From Acetomicrobium hydrogeniformans (GTDB taxonomy: Bacteria > Synergistota > Synergistia > Synergistales > JAFGMB01), in assembly GCA_016841745.1 (NCBI GenBank), contig JAENYO010000004.1:146026-210025 (forward strand): a DNA stretch of 64,000 nucleotides, read 5' to 3'. The first letter of the stretch is position 1. Each line of letters opens with the position of its first letter. The translations under genes and the position numbers were made by a program. The notes beneath the pieces are model-generated. The model was given only the letters and a program-made list of their open reading frames with translations, ran no database searches and was not told where the DNA came from. Shown in pieces: positions 35,646 to 44,923 of the stretch.

Positions 35646-35852
35646 TACTGGCCTTACAGGTTCCTTCGGACAGACTCTGGATTTCTGTTCCAGAAGAATT
35701 TACAAGGAAAGAATTTATTCCCCATATATTGAAATAATTTCTCTTTTTGAGTCTACCCATGGCGATTCTTATGGTATGATGATTCGGTTTGAGAATCTGG
35801 CAGTTATTCCAAAGTAAAAGAAGAACCCTGTTTCAATTCTGGAGGTTTGCCA

Positions 35853-37493
35853 ATGAATACAGCAATGGCCTTTCAACTCCTCGGAGGAGTAGGTCTTTTC
35901 CTTTATGGCATAAAGTTGATGGGTGATTCCCTGCAGGACCTGGCAGGAGACAGACTTCGACAGTTGATAGCTTCCCTTACGAGTACACCTGTAAAAGGAA
36001 TACTCGTTGGCACTTTAGTTACCATGGTAATACAAAGCAGCAGTGCAACTTCAGTCATGGCAGTCAGCTTTGTTCATGCCGGGCTCATGAGTTTAAAACA
36101 GGCAATAAGCGTAATAATGGGAGCGGCCATAGGTACTACGATCACAGCACAGCTCATTGCCTTCAAGATCAAACATTTTGCCCTTCCCCTTGTAGGAATA
36201 GGGATGATCTTTGCAGTCTTTGGAAGAAACAAGAGGCAGAAATACCTGGGGAACGGAATGGTCGGATTTGCCCTTCTCTTTTTGGGAATGATACACATGG
36301 AGGGTGCTATGGCGTTTCTGAAGGATCGCCAGGATATATTTCTGGCCTTCAGTGACAACCCTTTTCTTGGTGTTCTTGCTGGTACGGGACTTACTATGCT
36401 TGTCCAGTCAAGTTCTGCAACTGTCGGTCTGACCATGGTAATGGCTTCCCAGGGACTGATCAATATTGATGGAGCCATCCCTATCCTTTTCGGAGATAAT
36501 ATAGGCACAACGATAACAGCCGTCATTGCTTCACTGGGATTAGGACGAACAGCTAAACAGGCGGCAGTTTCGCAGGTGTTTTTCAAGATTATTGGAACCA
36601 TAATTTTTATGACCATTTTCCCAGTGTTCAGATCAGTAGTTGTTTTAACTTCCCATGATATAGCCCGTCAGCTGGCCAATGCCCATACTCTTTTTAACGT
36701 TACAAATACCCTTATCCTGCTTCCCTTTATAGGGCCTTTTTCCCGGCTCATAGAAAAAGTGGTACCTTCTCGGGGTGAGGTTGTATTTACAGGTCCTCAA
36801 TACCTTGACAGGAGACTTGTGAATGCTTCCCCGGCTGCAGGTGTGGATGCTGTCAGGAAAGAGCTCATACGCCTTGGCGGTCTGGTCCAGAATATGATGG
36901 CCTATGTATTCGATGCCTTCGAAAAAGATGATTATCACATGATAAATCAGGTCAACAGAACAGAAAAGATAGTGAATGAGACAACCCATACTATTGCTTC
37001 TTATGCATCAGAACTTTTTCAGAAGAGCCTCTCGGAAGAACTCTCCATAGTTCTTTCCTCTTATGTCAACGGACTCGGTGATATTGAGCGGATAGGTGAC
37101 CATGCACAGAATCTTATAGAACTGTTTGAATACAAGTTTGAACATAAGCTTTCTTTTTCTCAAAAGGGTATGGAGGAATTTGAAGATATGTTCAATACTA
37201 CTTCAAGAGCTGTCGATCTCTGTATTGAGGCCATGGCGGAAGAAAACCAGTCGAAGGCCAGGGAAGTGATCGATGTACTGGAGAAAGAGATAGACAGGAA
37301 GGAAAAAATTCTCCGCAAGAGCCATATCAAGAGACTCAATATGGGGAAGTGTCAACCATCTTCAGGAGTCGTGTTCATAGATATTCTGAGTAATCTTGAA
37401 AGGATAGGGGACCATGCCCATAATCTTTCATATATAGTTCTTGATGTGGTAGGTGTCCGAAATATTCAAAGGATTCCCAAACTGAAAAAATAG
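35853..37493 (+). CDS. Na/phosphate cotransporter-family protein with PhoU-like tail (paralogue 1)
   Basis: Inner-membrane protein of 546 residues. The first 310 residues hold the duplicated NptA/Na-Pi cotransporter fold with two QSSSATS/QSSSATV motifs, the key substrate loops. The last 200 residues are soluble helices like PhoU, with two IERIGDHA-type motifs (GDIERIGDHAQN and NLERIGDHAHN) that bind metal clusters in PhoU. It probably imports or exports phosphate with sodium. ATG 35853 is chosen because GGAGG lies just upstream; an in-frame TTG at 35847 is too close. A closely similar paralogue follows in tandem. Confidence 0.9.
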   Translation: MNTAMAFQLLGGVGLFLYGIKLMGDSLQDLAGDRLRQLIASLTSTPVKGILVGTLVTMVIQSSSATSVMAVSFVHAGLMSLKQAISVIMGAAIGTTITAQLIAFKIKHFALPLVGIGMIFAVFGRNKRQKYLGNGMVGFALLFLGMIHMEGAMAFLKDRQDIFLAFSDNPFLGVLAGTGLTMLVQSSSATVGLTMVMASQGLINIDGAIPILFGDNIGTTITAVIASLGLGRTAKQAAVSQVFFKIIGTIIFMTIFPVFRSVVVLTSHDIARQLANAHTLFNVTNTLILLPFIGPFSRLIEKVVPSRGEVVFTGPQYLDRRLVNASPAAGVDAVRKELIRLGGLVQNMMAYVFDAFEKDDYHMINQVNRTEKIVNETTHTIASYASELFQKSLSEELSIVLSSYVNGLGDIERIGDHAQNLIELFEYKFEHKLSFSQKGMEEFEDMFNTTSRAVDLCIEAMAEENQSKAREVIDVLEKEIDRKEKILRKSHIKRLNMGKCQPSSGVVFIDILSNLERIGDHAHNLSYIVLDVVGVRNIQRIPKLKK

Positions 37494-37813: not shown

Positions 37814-39454
37814 ATGTCTACCGGGACGATATTTCAACTTCTCGGAGGAATAGGGCTTTTCCTCTTTGCTATCAAGCTTATGGGGGAATCCCTTCAGGAT
37901 CTGGCCGGGGACAGACTGCGCCAGCTTATATCTTCACTTACCAGTACTCCTGTCAAAGGGGTACTGGTTGGGACTCTTGTAACGGTGCTGATACAGAGCA
38001 GCAGTGCTACGACGGTAATGAGCGTCAGTTTTGTACATGCGGGACTTATGACCCTCAAACAGGCAGTCGGGGTTATCATGGGGGCTAACATAGGTACCAC
38101 AGTAACAGCCCAGCTCATCGCTTTCAAGATCAAGCATTATGCACTTCCCATAATAGCCGTTGGTATGATGCTTTCAGTTTTCGGAAGGACCAAGAAACAG
38201 AAATATCTGGGTAATGGACTGGTAGGCTTCGGTCTTCTCTTCCTGGGGATGCAATATATGGGAGATTCCATGAAGTTCCTCAGGGGAAGACAGGATATAT
38301 TCCTTGCTTTCAGCCATAACCCGCTCCTTGGTGTGATGGCAGGAGCAGGTCTGACCATGCTGGTACAGTCCAGTTCTGCTACGGTAGGCCTGACCATAGC
38401 CATGGCAAGCCAGGGACTTTTCGGTCTGGATGCGGCAATTCCCATCCTCCTTGGTGATAACATCGGTACTACCATAACAGCTGTTATAGCATGTATGGGG
38501 TCTAACCGGAGCGCCAAGCAGGCCGCCGCGGCCCATGTGCTGTTCAACGTCATAGGTGTGGGTATATTCCTGCTGATCCTTCCTTTCTTCAGGAGTGTCG
38601 TACTTATGACCTCGGGGGATATTGCCCGGCAGCTTGCAAATGCCCATACTCTGTTTAACGTTACGAATACCCTTCTTTTCCTGCCCTTTACATCCCTTTT
38701 CGTTAAGATCATCCAGCTTGTCATACCGTCAAAGGAGACCATTTCATACATTGGGCCCCAGTTCCTTGATATCAGGCTCATCGAGGCTTCTCCAGCGGCT
38801 GCCGTTGATGCTGTGAGAAAGGAGATATTACGGATCGGTGATCTTGCAAGTCAGATGATGATGGACGTTCATAATGCCTTTACGCTGGATGATGTTCACT
38901 TGATAGAACAGGTTAACCAGACAGAGAAGATCGTGAACGAACTTACCCATAAGGTTGCCCAGTATTCTTCAGAACTCTGGCAGAAAAGCCTTTCCCAGGA
39001 TCTGTCTATAGTGCTATCCTCATACATTAACGGATTGGGAGATCTTGAAAGGATAGGTGACCATGCCCAGAATCTTATTGAACTTTATGATTACAAGAGG
39101 GAAAACAGGCTTCCTTTTTCTGAAAAGGCTATGGAGGAATTTGAAGAGATGTTCAGTACGACCAACCGGGCATTAGAACTGAGCCTGGAAGCCATAGCGG
39201 GTGAAGATGTGGAGAAGGCCAGGGAGGTAATTGATGTTCTGGAAAGCAAGATCGATACAATGGAAAAGGAACTGCGGATCCGTCACATCAAGCGTCTTAA
39301 CAAGGGAGATTGCCATCCTTCGGCCGGGGTTGTCTTTATCGATATTCTGAGCAATCTGGAAAGAATAGGAGATCATGCCCACAACCTCTCCTATATTGTT
39401 ATTGATGTAGCAAAAGTAAGAGGACAGGATCAGAGGCACAAATACATTTCTTGA
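37814..39454 (+). CDS. Na/phosphate cotransporter-family protein with PhoU-like tail (paralogue 2)
   Basis: 546 residues, collinear with and closely similar to the gene just upstream through its whole length (same QSSSATT and QSSSATV loops, same GDLERIGDHAQN and NLERIGDHAHN motifs), so the pair arose by tandem duplication. Membrane and PhoU-like parts have the same borders. ATG 37814 follows GGGAGGAA. The two differ mainly in conservative changes and have separate upstream control regions, which suggests different expression (for example by phosphate level) rather than different function. A hairpin with T-rich tail follows. Confidence 0.9.
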   Translation: MSTGTIFQLLGGIGLFLFAIKLMGESLQDLAGDRLRQLISSLTSTPVKGVLVGTLVTVLIQSSSATTVMSVSFVHAGLMTLKQAVGVIMGANIGTTVTAQLIAFKIKHYALPIIAVGMMLSVFGRTKKQKYLGNGLVGFGLLFLGMQYMGDSMKFLRGRQDIFLAFSHNPLLGVMAGAGLTMLVQSSSATVGLTIAMASQGLFGLDAAIPILLGDNIGTTITAVIACMGSNRSAKQAAAAHVLFNVIGVGIFLLILPFFRSVVLMTSGDIARQLANAHTLFNVTNTLLFLPFTSLFVKIIQLVIPSKETISYIGPQFLDIRLIEASPAAAVDAVRKEILRIGDLASQMMMDVHNAFTLDDVHLIEQVNQTEKIVNELTHKVAQYSSELWQKSLSQDLSIVLSSYINGLGDLERIGDHAQNLIELYDYKRENRLPFSEKAMEEFEEMFSTTNRALELSLEAIAGEDVEKAREVIDVLESKIDTMEKELRIRHIKRLNKGDCHPSAGVVFIDILSNLERIGDHAHNLSYIVIDVAKVRGQDQRHKYIS

Positions 39455-39539: not shown

Positions 39540-39569
39540 TTGACAAACTCATATACTATAGTTTACAAT
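39540..39569 (+). promoter_or_regulatory. Promoter of the lysW operon
   Basis: TTGACA (39540-39545) and TACAAT (39564-39569) with an 18-nt spacer lie about 30 bases before lysW. An inverted repeat AGTATAT (39530-39536)/ATATACT (39551-39557) straddles the -35 box and may be an operator. Confidence 0.65.
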
Positions 39570-39601: not shown

Positions 39602-39769
39602 ATGACCGTCAATTGTGTTGTATGTGAAGGACTTGTTACCATGCCGGAAGATGTGATGGAAGGAGAACTATTGTTGTGTCCTGATTGTGGAACTGAACTT
39701 GAGCTGGTTAGCATAAATCCCCTGACAGTTGAAGAAGCGCCAGAAGTTCAGGAGGACTGGGGAGAATAA
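39602..39769 (+). CDS. lysW: LysW amino-group carrier protein
   Basis: Carrier of 55 residues whose C-terminal Glu is joined to the amino group of aminoadipate (lysine route) or glutamate (ornithine route), protecting it through the later steps. It has two Cys pairs (C5VVC8 and C26PDC29) that form the zinc knuckle, an acidic body, and the diagnostic C-terminal EDWGE. ATG 39602 follows AGGAGGAAT. Its stop is one base before the ATG of lysX, so both are co-translated. A good promoter lies upstream. It is easily missed because of its small size. Confidence 0.95.
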   Translation: MTVNCVVCEGLVTMPEDVMEGELLLCPDCGTELELVSINPLTVEEAPEVQEDWGE

Positions 39770-39770
39770 A

Positions 39771-40610
39771 ATGTCTTCCCTGAAGTTTTTCTACTCAAGG
39801 CTCAGAACAGAGGAAAAACAGCTTTTTAAAGCAGCAGAGAAGCTGGGAATTCCCTTTGAATTTATTGATGTCAGGAGTCTGGTATGGCCGGATGTTGATA
39901 TCTCTCCCGGGGATGTAGCGGTAGGCCGGGTGGTAAGCCAGACTCAGAACCAGGCAATCTGTCAGCTTCTGGAGTCGAAGGGTGTCCGAACAGTTAATCC
40001 TTCTTCAGTAGTAGCTCTCTGTGGAGACAAGGTTGCTACTGCAGCAGCCCTTGATAATGCGGGGATACCCCAGCCTCCATATCGTGTCGCCTTTTCTCCT
40101 GATGAAGCTATTCTGGCTTCTGAACAACTTGGTTATCCTGTCGTATTCAAGCCGCCTGTGGGGAGCTGGGGAAGGTTACTGGCCAAGATGAACGATAGGG
40201 ATGCGGTGGAAGCTCTTGTTGAGCATAAATCTTACATGGGGCCACAGCACCAGGTCTTTTTTATTCAGAAGTATATAGAAAAAGATGGATGGGATCTAAG
40301 GGCGACAGTCATTGGAGGAAAGCCTGTAACCGCTATTCGCCGATGCAGTGAACACTGGATAACCAATACTGCAAGGGGTGCCCGGGCGGAAGGGTTTCCT
40401 CTGGATAGTATCCTTATTAATATCCTGAAAAAAGTTCATGGAGCGATTGGTGGAGATGTGCTTGCAGTAGACCTCTTTCAGACTAGGGATGGATGGTTGT
40501 TAAATGAAGTTAACGGCCAGCCCGAATTCAGAAGCTCCATCGAAACTACAGGTGTAGACCTTCCTGAATTGATAGTTAACCATGCATGGTCTCTGGTTTC
40601 CAGGGATTAA
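39771..40610 (+). CDS. lysX: LysX-type ATP-grasp ligase (amino acid to LysW)
   Basis: Joins the amino group of 2-aminoadipate (or glutamate) to the C-terminal Glu of LysW using ATP. The 279-residue ATP-grasp enzyme of the RimK/LysX family shows VFKPPVGSWGR (ATP-binding lysine loop), FIQKYIEKDGWDLR and the Mg-site EVN near the end. At the substrate end it reads EVNGQPEFRSS, while the LysX I recall from Thermus reads EVNHTMEFKNS; this leaves open whether it prefers aminoadipate or glutamate. ATG 39771 follows the lysW stop directly; in-frame upstream sequence overlaps lysW and is not used. About 260 bases separate it from lysY. Confidence 0.9.
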   Translation: MSSLKFFYSRLRTEEKQLFKAAEKLGIPFEFIDVRSLVWPDVDISPGDVAVGRVVSQTQNQAICQLLESKGVRTVNPSSVVALCGDKVATAAALDNAGIPQPPYRVAFSPDEAILASEQLGYPVVFKPPVGSWGRLLAKMNDRDAVEALVEHKSYMGPQHQVFFIQKYIEKDGWDLRATVIGGKPVTAIRRCSEHWITNTARGARAEGFPLDSILINILKKVHGAIGGDVLAVDLFQTRDGWLLNEVNGQPEFRSSIETTGVDLPELIVNHAWSLVSRD

Positions 40611-40722
40611 CAGAAAGGATTTTATCTTGATATATAAACAGCTATTCTATTTCACCAGATCAAAGTGCAGAGCAGGACAGCAAGGGATCCTCAGGCGAGG
40701 AGGTTCTCTTTATCTTTATTAT

Positions 40723-40816
40723 GGTTGAAGGAATGATCTTTAAGAGATCTTTTATGGCAAAACTGAAAATATTCCTTCAACCCACTGGCCAGAGGTCATG
40801 TGGGTTTTATTTTTTA
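40723..40816 (+). promoter_or_regulatory. Leader with mutually exclusive stems before lysY
   Basis: GGTTGAAGGAAT (40723-40734) pairs exactly with ATTCCTTCAACC (40771-40782). The end of that second arm overlaps the 5' arm of a terminator, AACCCAC (40779-40785)/GTGGGTT (40800-40806) with a T-rich tail to 40816. Only one of the two can form, so the first stem acts as an antiterminator. Sequence upstream (40640-40720) may contain the sensing part; it does not match the lysine riboswitch or T-box cores I know. Confidence 0.55.
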
Positions 40817-40870
40817 ACGTAGGGTTAAATAGTTTTTTAAGATCTATTTAACCACAAGGAGGTTGCTACC

Positions 40871-41911
40871 ATGTTCAGGATCATCGTATGGGGTGCCAAT
40901 GGAATGGCGGGAGGCGAGCTCTTGAGGCTCCTGGCCGGCCATCCTGAATTAAAGCTGGAAGGGGCTGTTTCCAGGAGTAAAGCTGGTCAGCCTGTCTGGC
41001 ATGTCCATCCCCATCTTCGTCAGGATTTCCCTTCGGAGACATTCATTTCTCCCGAGGAGGCCTTCGGGAGGGACAGTCATCTTGTGTTTCTGGCTTTACC
41101 CCATGGAAGTTCCTGGCCGGTAATAGAACAATATCTTCAACAAAAGGTTAAAGTTGTAGATCTTTCTGCAGATGTGAGGCTCTCCAACCCCGAAGACTAT
41201 GTCAAGTGGTACGGTTCCATCCATGGTGCTCCCCATCTCCTTGAAAGAAGTGTTTATGGTCTGCCGGAAGTCCACAGGGAAGAGATCCGTGGGGCAGACC
41301 TGGTAAGCGGGGTTGGATGTAATGCTTCATGTTCCATCCTTGGCCTTTTTCCCCTTGCCCGTGAAGGGCTGTTGGAGGATGCAAGGCTTGAACTGAGGGT
41401 AGGCTCCTCCGAAGGAGGATCCAATCCCAATACGGGCAGCCATCATCCTTATAGAAGCAGAACATTGAGAGTTTATGAGCCCTTCAGGCACCGTCACCTT
41501 GCAGAGATCGTCCAGGAACTGAAAACTCCAGAGGAGTTATTTACAATGACAATGACGGCTGCAGGGATTGTCAGAGGTGTACAGATGCTGGCCCAGGTAA
41601 GACTTGCGCGAAAGATGAAGGAATCAGAACTGTGGAAGATCTACAGGAAATATTACCAGGGTGAACCCTTTATGAATCTTTGTCCTGCCAGACCTTCCCA
41701 CCTCAGATTGCCGGATCCGAGGTTTGTAATGGGAAGTAACAGGGTTCTTACCGGATTTTCTCTCCATGACGACGGTTACAGACTTATCGTTGTTTCTGCC
41801 ATCGATAATCTGATGAAGGGAGCTTCCGGTTCGGCTCTTCAGTGTGCCAACCTTATGTTTGGTCTGGAAGAGACAAGTGGTCTGGAAATGAGACCCCTGT
41901 ATCCTGCCTGA
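40871..41911 (+). CDS. lysY: LysY: LysW-aminoadipyl (or glutamyl) phosphate reductase
   Basis: NADPH-dependent reductase of 346 residues of the ArgC family; it turns the LysW-bound acyl phosphate into the semialdehyde. The N-terminal nucleotide fold shows WGANGMAGGELLRLL, and the catalytic Cys is Cys150 in GVGCNASCS. SEGGSNP and HHPYRSRTLRVYE follow as in LysY/ArgC. ATG 40871 follows AAGGAGGTT. It is the first gene after the structured leader, and lysZ follows after 15 bases. Length and motifs are normal. Confidence 0.92.
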   Translation: MFRIIVWGANGMAGGELLRLLAGHPELKLEGAVSRSKAGQPVWHVHPHLRQDFPSETFISPEEAFGRDSHLVFLALPHGSSWPVIEQYLQQKVKVVDLSADVRLSNPEDYVKWYGSIHGAPHLLERSVYGLPEVHREEIRGADLVSGVGCNASCSILGLFPLAREGLLEDARLELRVGSSEGGSNPNTGSHHPYRSRTLRVYEPFRHRHLAEIVQELKTPEELFTMTMTAAGIVRGVQMLAQVRLARKMKESELWKIYRKYYQGEPFMNLCPARPSHLRLPDPRFVMGSNRVLTGFSLHDDGYRLIVVSAIDNLMKGASGSALQCANLMFGLEETSGLEMRPLYPA

Positions 41912-41926
41912 TGGAGATGACTGATA

Positions 41927-42766
41927 ATGAAAGGGTCTGAAAAAATGAAAACTCTCGGAACGGGTGTCGTGAAGATCGGCGGAGCAAGGGGTAACAATGT
42001 GATGCCATTATTGAAAGATCTTGCTGTACGAACAAAAAGGGGAGAAAAATGGGTTCTTGTCCATGGAGCAAGCGGATCCATGGAGGATATCTGCATCGCT
42101 TCCGGCCTGGAGCCTGATTATGTGATAAGCCCGAGCGGGTTCCGCAGCCGCTACGTTGGAGAAAAGGAACGGGACCTCTTTGAATTCGCCTGTACAAAGT
42201 TTTCCATAGACCTTGTCTCGGCAGCGGCTCTCCTTGGACTATGGGCATTGCCTCTGTACCCGCAGTATTTCCCATCTGCTTTTGGAAAACGCAAGGATGT
42301 TCTCAGGTCTGTGGAAAATGGGCGTATAAGGATACTCAGAGGTAATTACAGCGGGAAAATAATGTCTTTCAACCCCGAGTGGGTAAGGAAGGCCTGGTCT
42401 ATGGGTGCCCTTCCCATGCTGCCTCCCATTGCTTTGTCTCAAGAGGATAAAAGCCCCCTTAACGTAGACGGCGACAGATTGGCAGCAGCAGCTGCAGGAG
42501 CTCTGGAAGGGGATATGCTTGTTATCCTGAGCAACGTTCCCGGCCTGCTTTCAGACCCATCTGACAGTGCCAGCATGATCCGGAAGGCCGATCTTTCCCA
42601 GTGGGACAGACTGGAGAAATGTGCCGAGGGGAACATGAAAAGAAAACTTCTGGCAGCCAGGGAAGCTCTGGAGCAGAAAGTGCAGAGGGTGTTTATAGCT
42701 GACAGCAGAGAAGAAGAACCTTTAGAAAAAGCCCTTTCGGGAGGAGGAACCATGTTATGTCACTAA
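41927..42766 (+). CDS. lysZ: LysZ: LysW-aminoadipate (or glutamate) kinase
   Basis: Amino-acid kinase family enzyme of 279 residues, related to ArgB acetylglutamate kinase; it phosphorylates the side-chain carboxylate of the LysW-bound amino acid. KIGGARGNN near the N-terminus and VHGASGSM form the nucleotide-binding loops, and NVDGDRLAAAAAGAL is the usual later motif. The start could be ATG 41927 or the in-frame ATG 41945; the first is kept because GGAG lies before it at the end of lysY. Its 3' end overlaps lysJ by 10 bases. Confidence 0.9.
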   Translation: MKGSEKMKTLGTGVVKIGGARGNNVMPLLKDLAVRTKRGEKWVLVHGASGSMEDICIASGLEPDYVISPSGFRSRYVGEKERDLFEFACTKFSIDLVSAAALLGLWALPLYPQYFPSAFGKRKDVLRSVENGRIRILRGNYSGKIMSFNPEWVRKAWSMGALPMLPPIALSQEDKSPLNVDGDRLAAAAAGALEGDMLVILSNVPGLLSDPSDSASMIRKADLSQWDRLEKCAEGNMKRKLLAAREALEQKVQRVFIADSREEEPLEKALSGGGTMLCH

Positions 42767-43890
42767 TTTATGGATCCAGAAAACTGGAAATAGCTGGTGG
42801 AAAGGGGTCTCTTGTCTGGGACAGAGATGGGAAAAAATATATTGATTTTATGTGCGGTCATGGAGCGGCTCTTTTTGGGCATGCCCATCCGGTACTGGTC
42901 AAAGCTCTTGAAAGAGCTTCAACTTATCCCTGGACACTTGGAGCCGGATTTAATTCTCCTCCCAGGGAAAAATTCAGGTTAAAACTGGGAGGACTCCTTC
43001 CGGAAGGGCGTGTTTATCTGGGTAACAGCGGAGCAGAGGCGATCGAAGCGGCCCTGAAGCTTGCAGTAGCTTTAAAACCGGGAAGAACAAAGATCATAGC
43101 CCTGAGGAGGGGTTTTCATGGAAGGACCCTTGGTGCCCTGTCTCTGACCTTTAATCCTCAGTATAAAAAATACTGGAAAGATATATTGCCATCGGTCCTT
43201 CATGTTTCCCCCGAAGATCTCCCTGCCTCGATAGACCAGGATACTGCTGCAGTGTTTGTGGAGCCTCTCCAGGGAGAGGGCGGAGTTTATTCTCTGGGAA
43301 CAGGACTGGCACAGCGGATCAACCTTGCCTGCAGGGAGAATGGATCTCTTCTTATAGCTGACGAGATCCAGTGCGGCTGGGGGCGCTGTGGACATATCCT
43401 TGCCAGTTCTTTGACAGGACTGGATCCACACATTGTCTGCCTTGCAAAAGGTGTTGCCGGAGGTCTTCCTGTAGGAGTAACCATATGGAAGGGTGAAATC
43501 GGCGATTTCCCGGCAAAGGGACATGGGTCAACCTATGGCGGTAATCCCCTTGTTTCAGCAGTGGGTCTTGCTGCCTTTGAGCTTCTCCTTGAAGAAAACC
43601 TTCCAGCGAAGGCAATAGAAGAGGGGAGTAAATTCCGTTCAGCCCTTGAACAATTAAAAAGCCCATTAATTCGTGAAGTCCGGGGAATGGGTATCCTTAC
43701 GGGGGTTGAGCTTTCGGTCAAGGCCACCCCGGTTGTGTCGACCCTTCAGCACAAGGGTGTCCTGGCCCTTCCGGCAGGCCCAATGGTACTTCGATTTATG
43801 CCTCCCTTTACTGCTGAAAAAGAGGACTATGACACCGTCATATCCGTACTTGGTGAGACTCTGGAAGTGATATTGAATGACGACCAATGA
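42757..43890 (+). CDS. lysJ: LysJ: LysW-lysine (or ornithine) aminotransferase
   Basis: Class III PLP aminotransferase of 377 residues of the ArgD/LysJ family; converts the LysW-bound semialdehyde to the amine. Marks are GNSGAEAIEAALK (PLP phosphate loop), GFHGRTLGALS, ADEIQCGWGR and the PLP lysine Lys231 in CLAKGVAGG, then GSTYGGNPL. ATG 42757 follows GAGGAGGAA inside the end of lysZ. It overlaps lysK by 14 bases, a sign of tight coupling. Confidence 0.92.
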   Translation: MSLIYGSRKLEIAGGKGSLVWDRDGKKYIDFMCGHGAALFGHAHPVLVKALERASTYPWTLGAGFNSPPREKFRLKLGGLLPEGRVYLGNSGAEAIEAALKLAVALKPGRTKIIALRRGFHGRTLGALSLTFNPQYKKYWKDILPSVLHVSPEDLPASIDQDTAAVFVEPLQGEGGVYSLGTGLAQRINLACRENGSLLIADEIQCGWGRCGHILASSLTGLDPHIVCLAKGVAGGLPVGVTIWKGEIGDFPAKGHGSTYGGNPLVSAVGLAAFELLLEENLPAKAIEEGSKFRSALEQLKSPLIREVRGMGILTGVELSVKATPVVSTLQHKGVLALPAGPMVLRFMPPFTAEKEDYDTVISVLGETLEVILNDDQ

Positions 43891-44923
43891 AACTTTACTG
43901 GTTAAACTCGTAGGTATCCAGAGCATCAGCGGAAAAGAAGGAGAAGCTGTCAAATATCTTGCGGAAACCCTACCCGATTTTGGTTGGGATTCCACATTCA
44001 TTGATGATGCAGGTAATCTTGTAGCCGCAAAGGGGAAGGGGGAAAAAGAACTTGTCCTTCTTTGCCACGTCGACACTGTTCCGGGAGGTCCTCTCCTTAA
44101 ACTTGATGGAAATGTCCTTTGGGGAAGAGGATCTGTCGACGCGAAGGGACCACTTTGTTCTTTAGCAGTAGCAGGAGGAAAGATAAATGTACCTGAAGAC
44201 TGGAAATTGACCTTCATCGCTGCGGTAAGAGAGGAAACAGATTCCAGGGGAGCCCGTTTCAGAATACCCCTACATTCTCCTGCTGCCTGTATTGTTGGGG
44301 AGCCTTCCGGTTATGACGGAGTAACCCTTGGATACCGGGGAAGCCTCAGAATGTGGATCAAAGGAGAAGATGGTGGTGCTCACCGGAGTGGAGACGCAGG
44401 GCCTCTTACTGCTTGCCTTATGGCATCAGCAGAAGTTCTGAAAAGTATCGGATTGATGGATATTCCCGGGAAACCGATAATAGAACGCACCAGCGGAGCA
44501 GTTGCCTGTATGGAGGGGAGAGAAATAGCCGGTCGTTCTGCCTGCATAGATATTGATATCAGACTTCCTGTGGGCACAGATCCCGATACATGGATCGAAA
44601 TAGCCCGGAAATATGCCATGAAGTGGGGAGTCGAAGCTGAAGTCCGCTCTGCCATAAAGGCCCATGTCGTTCCAACCAGTGATCCGGTGATAAGAGCTTT
44701 CCGGGTCGGAATAAGAAAATCCGGATTCAAACCAAGATTGCTTGCAAAGGGAGGAACCGCGGACTTCAACCTGGCAGCGGCGTGGAACTGTCCTATGGCA
44801 GCCTATGGTCCCGGAGACAGCCACCTTGACCATACTGATCAGGAAAGGATAGATCTGAATGAATATGCGAGTTCCATCTCCATCCTGGAAGGGGTAATTC
44901 CTGGTTTAATGAGTATTATCTGA
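43877..44923 (+). CDS. lysK: LysK: LysW-lysine (or ornithine) hydrolase
   Basis: M20-family metallopeptidase of 348 residues that frees lysine or ornithine from LysW in the last step. Metal ligands are in LLCHVDTVPGG, GRGSVDAKGPL, VREETDSRGA and GEPSGYD, in the ArgE/LysK order, with a C-terminal KGGTADFN and HTDQERID. ATG 43877 lies inside the end of lysJ. It closes the run lysW-X-Y-Z-J-K. Genes for making aminoadipate are not in the window, so lysine versus ornithine as product cannot be decided here. Confidence 0.9.
   Translation: MTTNETLLVKLVGIQSISGKEGEAVKYLAETLPDFGWDSTFIDDAGNLVAAKGKGEKELVLLCHVDTVPGGPLLKLDGNVLWGRGSVDAKGPLCSLAVAGGKINVPEDWKLTFIAAVREETDSRGARFRIPLHSPAACIVGEPSGYDGVTLGYRGSLRMWIKGEDGGAHRSGDAGPLTACLMASAEVLKSIGLMDIPGKPIIERTSGAVACMEGREIAGRSACIDIDIRLPVGTDPDTWIEIARKYAMKWGVEAEVRSAIKAHVVPTSDPVIRAFRVGIRKSGFKPRLLAKGGTADFNLAAAWNCPMAAYGPGDSHLDHTDQERIDLNEYASSISILEGVIPGLMSII

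Follow-up and report, generated by a model that had tools for sequence, protein, structure and literature searches.

The lysWXYZJK operon and its surroundings

The window (the whole stretch of 64,000 nucleotides that was analysed) belongs to a genome of 3.04 Mb and carries on its + strand a lysWXYZJK operon. Genes for the amino-group carrier protein (lysW, 39602–39769) and for a RimK-family ligase with the signature HWITNTARG (lysX, 39771–40610) are followed by a spacer of 260 nt and then by lysY (40871–41911), lysZ (41927–42766), a lysJ/argD-like aminotransferase gene (42757–43890) and a gene for a lysK-like deacylase (43877–44923). The products of lysW, lysX, lysY and the deacylase gene matched NCBIfam models above cut-off (TIGR01206, TIGR02144, TIGR01850 argC and TIGR01902, respectively); the best model for lysZ was NF010659, just below cut-off, and that for the aminotransferase gene TIGR00707, below cut-off. 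A candidate sigma-70-like promoter lies 5' of lysW (39540–39569, + strand; 11 of 12 matches), recorded by a pattern scan in which promoter-like sites were not enriched (two in the region, where shuffles average 2.7).

The operon is preceded immediately by two adjacent Na+/Pi-cotransporter-PhoU paralogs (35847–37493 and 37814–39454) and followed directly by a gene for an M20-family peptidase (PF01546, 45027–46700), which presumably resembles the arginine-utilisation protein RocB. The sole gathering-level Rfam match in the window was a SAM riboswitch (RF00162) at 2089–2190 on the + strand, with 88.8 bits.

Leader frame and alternative hairpins in the lysX-lysY spacer

All elements of the spacer described here lie on the + strand. 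A Shine-Dalgarno-like AGAAAGGA (40612–40619) is situated 7 nt 5' of a TTG codon, from which a frame encoding LIYKQLFYFTRSKCRAGQQGILRRGGSLYLYYG extends to a TGA stop codon (40627–40728). This frame contains Lys and Arg codons, resembles in its layout the leaders of relatives and is likely the leader ORF, its translation being predicted from sequence. A leader peptide as such had already been proposed in an earlier note on this DNA and is retained here, but the frame chosen there, starting with ATG at 40754, was rejected, since it reads through the terminator as part of a longer ORF and has no Shine-Dalgarno sequence recognisable by eye. Both the MFE and the centroid fold place a hairpin over the leader ORF (40682–40710), the counterpart of hairpin P1 of the relatives, with the last two Arg codons AGG CGA (40693–40698) in its loop; covariation for P1 is seen in the relatives only and not in the window's own family.

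The stop codon of the leader (40726–40728) falls within the 5' arm of the antiterminator (40723–40734), which forms an exact stem of 12 bp with its 3' arm (40771–40782). No equally long stem arose when the spacer was shuffled 200 times with dinucleotide composition kept, so that the stem reported in the earlier note is confirmed as exceeding chance. The T-tailed terminator reported with it was likewise recovered, as an intrinsic terminator (40779–40815) with a stem at 40779–40806 and the T-rich tail TTATTTTTT at 40807–40815; its inner stem was also found by a pattern scan (four sites, with shuffles averaging 1.4). The fold of the whole 260-nt spacer was mildly better than that of shuffles (z -1.71, nine of 200 shuffles at least as good). 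Between the terminator and the Shine-Dalgarno sequence of lysY, an AT-rich hairpin was noted at 40823–40853 (15-nt arms, 87% complementary, 1-nt gap).

Stem and terminator share bases, as had been claimed, but their exclusion of each other is partial: only the four positions 40779–40782 are common, and the combination of antiterminator with shortened terminator (-22.9 kcal/mol) is nearly iso-energetic with that of full terminator and shortened antiterminator (-23.4 kcal/mol, 0.5 apart), so that exclusion is limited to four base pairs. A terminator-like hairpin that can largely coexist with the antiterminator would also suit a constitutive internal terminator, which lowers lysYZJK relative to lysWX as a matter of stoichiometry and to which the upstream stem and ORF would be incidental. 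The same layout of terminator and antiterminator could also be the expression platform of a metabolite-binding riboswitch for lysine, arginine or another ligand. However, no Rfam family matched the lysX-lysY spacer at the gathering threshold; six matches obtained near it at E values up to 10 scored far under the gathering level. Neither the lysine riboswitch nor the T-box model matched in the spacer, in agreement with the earlier observation that no core of either is present.

Occurrence of the leader in Synergistota

LysY was searched for at E <= 1e-60 and found in 74 of the 185 genomes of the phylum. Manual reading of the spacers revealed a comparable leader, after lysX and before a terminator-like hairpin, in 40 of these 74 genomes, distributed over the families f1 (2/2, including the window), f2 (2/2), f5 (25/26), f6 (4/4), f7 (2/3), f8 (3/3, counting L015, whose spacer has unknown bases) and f10 (2/3, the third genome having only the terminator on its contig). 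By this manual reading, seven families combine a K/R-containing leader ORF with a terminator-like hairpin, in f2 without a clear U-tract, which argues against an incidental frame beside a constitutive terminator. No leader was recognised in f3 (sequence was available for 16 of 17; 12 gaps were <=24 nt and four of 55–130 nt were viewed by eye), in the six loci of f4 (lysX-lysY gaps of -1 to 1), in the four of f9 (-11 to -8) or in f11 (a gap of -4 in the three of four that were measured), and 5' of lysW no comparable attenuator was recognised by eye at 16 leaderless loci, 15 of them from f3, f4 and f9 and one from f11.

The single further genome found of the window's family, L003, has a contig that ends 164 nt before lysY, with lysX off the contig. 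The visible end of its leader frame reads PFRKRGLSPAG, and its stop codon again lies within the antiterminator 5' arm. The antiterminator arms are GGCTGAAGG with CCTTCAGCC in L003 and GGTTGAAGG with CCTTCAACC in the window, which corresponds to one change from T-A to C-G; the change was read directly by eye, since automatic spacer alignments match the 3' arms and not the 5' arms.

A K/R motif recurs across leaders with differing codons (NKCKRGIKR, ARKRGLKR, EKRGVKRSA, KCGIKKDKR), and the I-K-R core of f5, viewed by eye, has an invariant K in all 20 sequences and an R in 19 of them, encoded by synonymous codons. Judged from coordinates, the start of the leader overlaps the lysX stop codon as ATGA at no fewer than four loci (L016, L020, L022, L062). 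L111, which was not used in the model, carries SKTAKRDKRKPAIKRVCKVG and, by eye, an antiterminator and a terminator. In f2 (L007, L008) a 12-bp antiterminator shares its 3' arm with a second hairpin, which by eye has no clear U-tract and ends near the lysY Shine-Dalgarno sequence; control in this family might be translational. The f7 leaders L021 and L024 fit poorly, their reading frame still being open where lysY begins.

An additional gene separates leader and lysY in four genomes of f5 (G053, G014, G183, G038), where the leader still adjoins lysX. A gene at this place was noted at L019, L031, L069 and L070; that of L019 gives a match to PF00285, the C-terminal domain of citrate synthase in Pfam (E 1.4e-34), and proteins similar to it by eye are encoded in L031 and, 5' of lysY, in L023. 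A lone citrate-synthase-like protein within a LysW operon is odd.

Putative attenuation mechanism

Taken together, the anatomy of the leader ORF and the computed structures, with the conservation and folding results given below, suggest that the lysX-lysY spacer probably acts on the lysWXYZJK operon as a ribosome-mediated transcription attenuator. In this scheme, a ribosome would translate the short Lys/Arg-containing leader peptide that starts just past lysX and, with charged tRNA-Lys or tRNA-Arg being scarce, would stall on the Lys/Arg codons and leave the downstream segment free; the antiterminator would then form, and RNA polymerase would continue into lysYZJK, lysY being the first gene under the proposed control. 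A ribosome that has passed the K/R codons and reached the stop codon would cover the antiterminator 5' arm, upon which the terminator would form and transcription would be limited to lysWX. We infer the stalling, the termination in the cell and the Arg and/or Lys signal from this arrangement. The statement of the earlier note that such a layout would control lysYZJK and not lysWX is considered right.

Conservation of pairing

Pairing was followed in an alignment of 20 f5 spacers with pairs selected by eye; of the eight pairs in P1 automatic prediction recovers five, and it recovers the terminator completely (eight pairs) but not the antiterminator. For P1, the hairpin over the K/R codons, together with the antiterminator, 91.6% of cells were paired and 17 were double-change cells (each reached in 0 of 500 shuffles), with the number of pairs showing a double change and that of pair types reached in 15 and 26 of 500 shuffles, respectively, where it has to be considered that related sequences can exceed such shuffles even without structure. 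Sliding the partner by one to three columns left 31–42% of cells paired. One P1 pair occurs as G-C in nine, A-U in five, C-G in five and G-U in one of the sequences. Covariation of the f5 terminator is modest, with 95.6% of cells paired (1/500 shuffles), double changes at 14/500 and pair types at 202/500. Antiterminator and terminator were counted separately because six alignment columns (118–123) are common to both; both helices are kept, and they are mutually exclusive in f5. Compensating changes in relatives, for which the earlier note had suggested looking, are hence present in f5, in addition to the one seen by eye in L003, and in f5, the only family amenable to alignment, they argue against a constitutive terminator.

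A hairpin loop AUAAAG kept in 17 of the 20 f5 sequences (by eye) could be taken as part of a ligand-binding fold, which would favour a riboswitch. Yet no large aptamer common to the families was seen, and what is conserved is an ORF that varies synonymously and in f8 and f10 is even LysX coding sequence; together with the negative Rfam searches this makes a riboswitch very improbable, and ribosome-mediated attenuation is preferred.

A covariance model of the f5 leader, applied to the 185 genomes, gave matches in 24, including all 20 training genomes. Matches near lysX outside the training set were obtained in G143, with the same peptide as a training sequence, in G182, in G006 (f6) and in G053, of the type with an inserted gene; all four start within about 65 nt 3' of lysX, which in G182 was recognised by eye. 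Those of G053 (26.1 bits) and G006 (29.9 bits) owe their acceptance to position, because their scores are near those of two matches taken as chance. The latter, in G150 and G178 (27.4 and 24.7 bits), are far from lysX and by eye adjoin a GntR-like gene and ribosomal-protein genes, respectively. The f5 model matched neither in the window nor elsewhere in the window's genome.

Codon content and ribosome position

The density of K and R in any open window of 12 amino acids was not above that of shuffled spacers in a test set of 36 loci (34 leaders and two f3 controls), with p<0.05 at one locus of 36 and p=0.75 for the window. As density is at chance level, the K/R richness of one spacer proves nothing, and density was rejected as stand-alone evidence, a point in favour of a constitutive terminator. 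The duplex of the upstream region with the terminator 5' arm, compared with shuffles, reached p<=0.05 at 15 of the 29 scored leader loci (window p=0.075). A first terminator finder detected none in L052, L060, L064, L018, L015, L076 and the control L040 and misidentified the hairpin in L007, L008, L065 and L017; the folding model relied on another finder, which failed in L007, L008 and L060, where hairpins were set by hand.

In the folding model, an equilibrium model without kinetics, a ribosome was placed at each codon of 38 leaders, pairing under the ribosome was forbidden, and the probability of the outer pairs of the terminator was computed, L003 being unscored. In the model the terminator was more probable after the K/R stretch than on the K/R codons in 31 of 37 leaders, less probable in four (L030, L065, L021, L028) and equally probable in two (L052, L063). 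Positions of low terminator probability comprised 132 of 296 K/R codons against 320 of 949 others (Fisher p 5e-4). Rotating the peptide against the profile equalled this in 0 of 2000 trials for the 37 leaders holding K/R, and in 4 of 2000 in a set thinned by hand to reduce near relatives (27 loci, 26 usable, L003 out). With other ribosome footprints, 13 of 14 and 14 of 14 leaders followed the expected direction among 15 selected loci, L003 again unscored. A single comparison of the last motif K/R codon with the stop codon had given the expected direction in 18 of 38 leaders and the opposite one in eight of 38, loci with a wrong hairpin included; the comparison of whole profiles, chosen after this outcome was known, replaced it because in f6 the chosen codon faces the antiterminator arm.

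In most leaders, the modelled position of the ribosome on the product codons would thus decide which structure forms. In the window the modelled effect is weak, with a mean terminator probability of 0.63 at K/R codons, 0.72 after them and 0.92 at the stop codon, and its switch falls at the L-Y-L-Y-Y codons 3' of the last Arg codon. Such position-dependent folding is not what a constitutive terminator would lead one to expect, and with the recurrence in seven families and the compensatory changes we hold that alternative to be quite unlikely in comparison with attenuation by a translating ribosome.

The same RNA switch could also be driven by a nascent-chain arrest peptide, in which a sequence of the type K-C-K-R-G-I-K-R would stall the ribosome on free arginine, ornithine or lysine and not on uncharged tRNA. 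Many f5 leaders keep Cys, Gly and Ile next to the K/R residues, the motif recurs in other families, and arginine-linked leader control is known for Salmonella speF (PMC6386406). Nevertheless, different residues occupy the places between K and R (C, Y, N, R; G, E, A, W), partly tracking hairpin pairing when read by eye, and the peptides of the window and of f2 match the motif only loosely. Moreover, in 20 of 37 leaders (manual reading) the switch point lies at most two codons from the last K/R codon of the motif, as codon sensing predicts. An arrest peptide therefore appears unlikely, and sensing of charged tRNA by codons remains the preferred reading.

K/R-rich tails of LysX as possible leaders

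In f8 and f10 the K/R motif is coding, since it forms an in-frame C-terminal tail of LysX, which extends beyond its usual end by 22 codons in L017, by 26 in L028 and by 28 in L029. These K/R-rich tails include LMKRDKRGEKRGVKRSAPESGASSPGE and KIKRTKCGIKKDKRAPYKGSGLDEHTES and are then followed by a terminator; in L029 an 11-bp antiterminator 5' arm lies inside the codons of the tail. The ends of LysX at other loci are unlike these tails. Here, a ribosome finishing LysX would read out the supply of Lys and Arg and decide on transcription of the remaining operon. It is conceivable, though put forward tentatively and with some doubt, that the LysX tail is the sensor, that free-standing leaders, the window's among them, are the split form of it and that Lys and Arg codons are both read, the pathway serving both amino acids. 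If true, a leader peptide fused to the tail of an enzyme, whose own translation is the sensor, would be unusual, and the K/R tails of LysX would be regulatory rather than catalytic. A second lysX-like gene was noticed in L076, 5' of lysW, besides the K/R-tailed lysX before lysY.

The probable amino acid signal

The window's genome lacks ArgJ (of 61 genomes searched, one has it), contains a single match to LysY and carries argG, so that the LysW genes probably serve the ornithine/arginine route; by eye, an argH-like gene stands beside argG. DAP decarboxylase (lysA) is present in this genome as well. As to an aminoadipate route, homocitrate synthase was over cut-off in none of the 185 genomes, with sub-threshold matches in 155. 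The signature HWITNTARG of the window's LysX has the same letters in 3vpd and 1uc8, which we take to be LysX of T. thermophilus, and in 5k2m, and differs from 3vpb. One publication (PMC10433800) gives 5k2m as LysX of T. kodakarensis, whose pathway is listed there as ornithine/lysine, and 3vpb as ArgX of Sulfolobus. As the window's LysX has a signature of the LysX type despite the evidence for an arginine route, the signal is kept as probably Arg and/or Lys.

Relation of the proposed attenuator to known systems

The kind of attenuator is known. The proposed scheme, a leader ORF with likely product codons, an antiterminator and a terminator, with the position of the ribosome deciding between them, is shared with attenuators of the trp/his/thr/ilv type, from which the element of Synergistota differs in sitting inside the operon after the second gene, in a leader that holds both Lys and Arg as likely products, and in that some leader starts overlap the lysX stop codon, while in two families the leader is the LysX tail. 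In Escherichia coli, the intercistronic attenuator of rph-pyrE, where translation of the end of the upstream enzyme gene controls a terminator, senses UTP via polymerase pausing; it resembles the present element in this arrangement between genes and differs in that it senses UTP and not amino-acid codons. For the lysine gene cluster of Thermus thermophilus, leader-peptide attenuation was reportedly described by Tsubouchi and co-workers in 2005; LysW-dependent biosynthesis genes and product codons in a leader peptide are said to be common to both, whereas Thermus belongs to another phylum and its leader is said to stand at the head of the cluster. Lysine riboswitches and T-boxes also place amino-acid genes under alternative terminators, but neither model matches here.

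Among the listed titles and abstract openings of open-access PMC papers, no description of this leader element was seen. Judged by these papers, four features appear new: its site behind lysX, its mixture of K and R codons, its fusion with LysX in two families and its presence in Synergistota. The LysW carrier-protein route to lysine or arginine in this phylum gains a concrete, testable regulatory model.

Attenuation would also explain the long lysX-lysY gap, which is mostly absent from the loci examined outside the phylum: among 80 listed matches, at least 45 loci were from outside it by record title, 43 of them with lysX upstream, and among these the gap was <=11 nt in 37 of 43 and 34–341 nt in six of 43. 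One contig labelled Phycisphaerales (L097) is identical to the Synergistaceae locus L096 in the C-terminal residues of lysX and in a 19-nt gap, and is probably misbinned.
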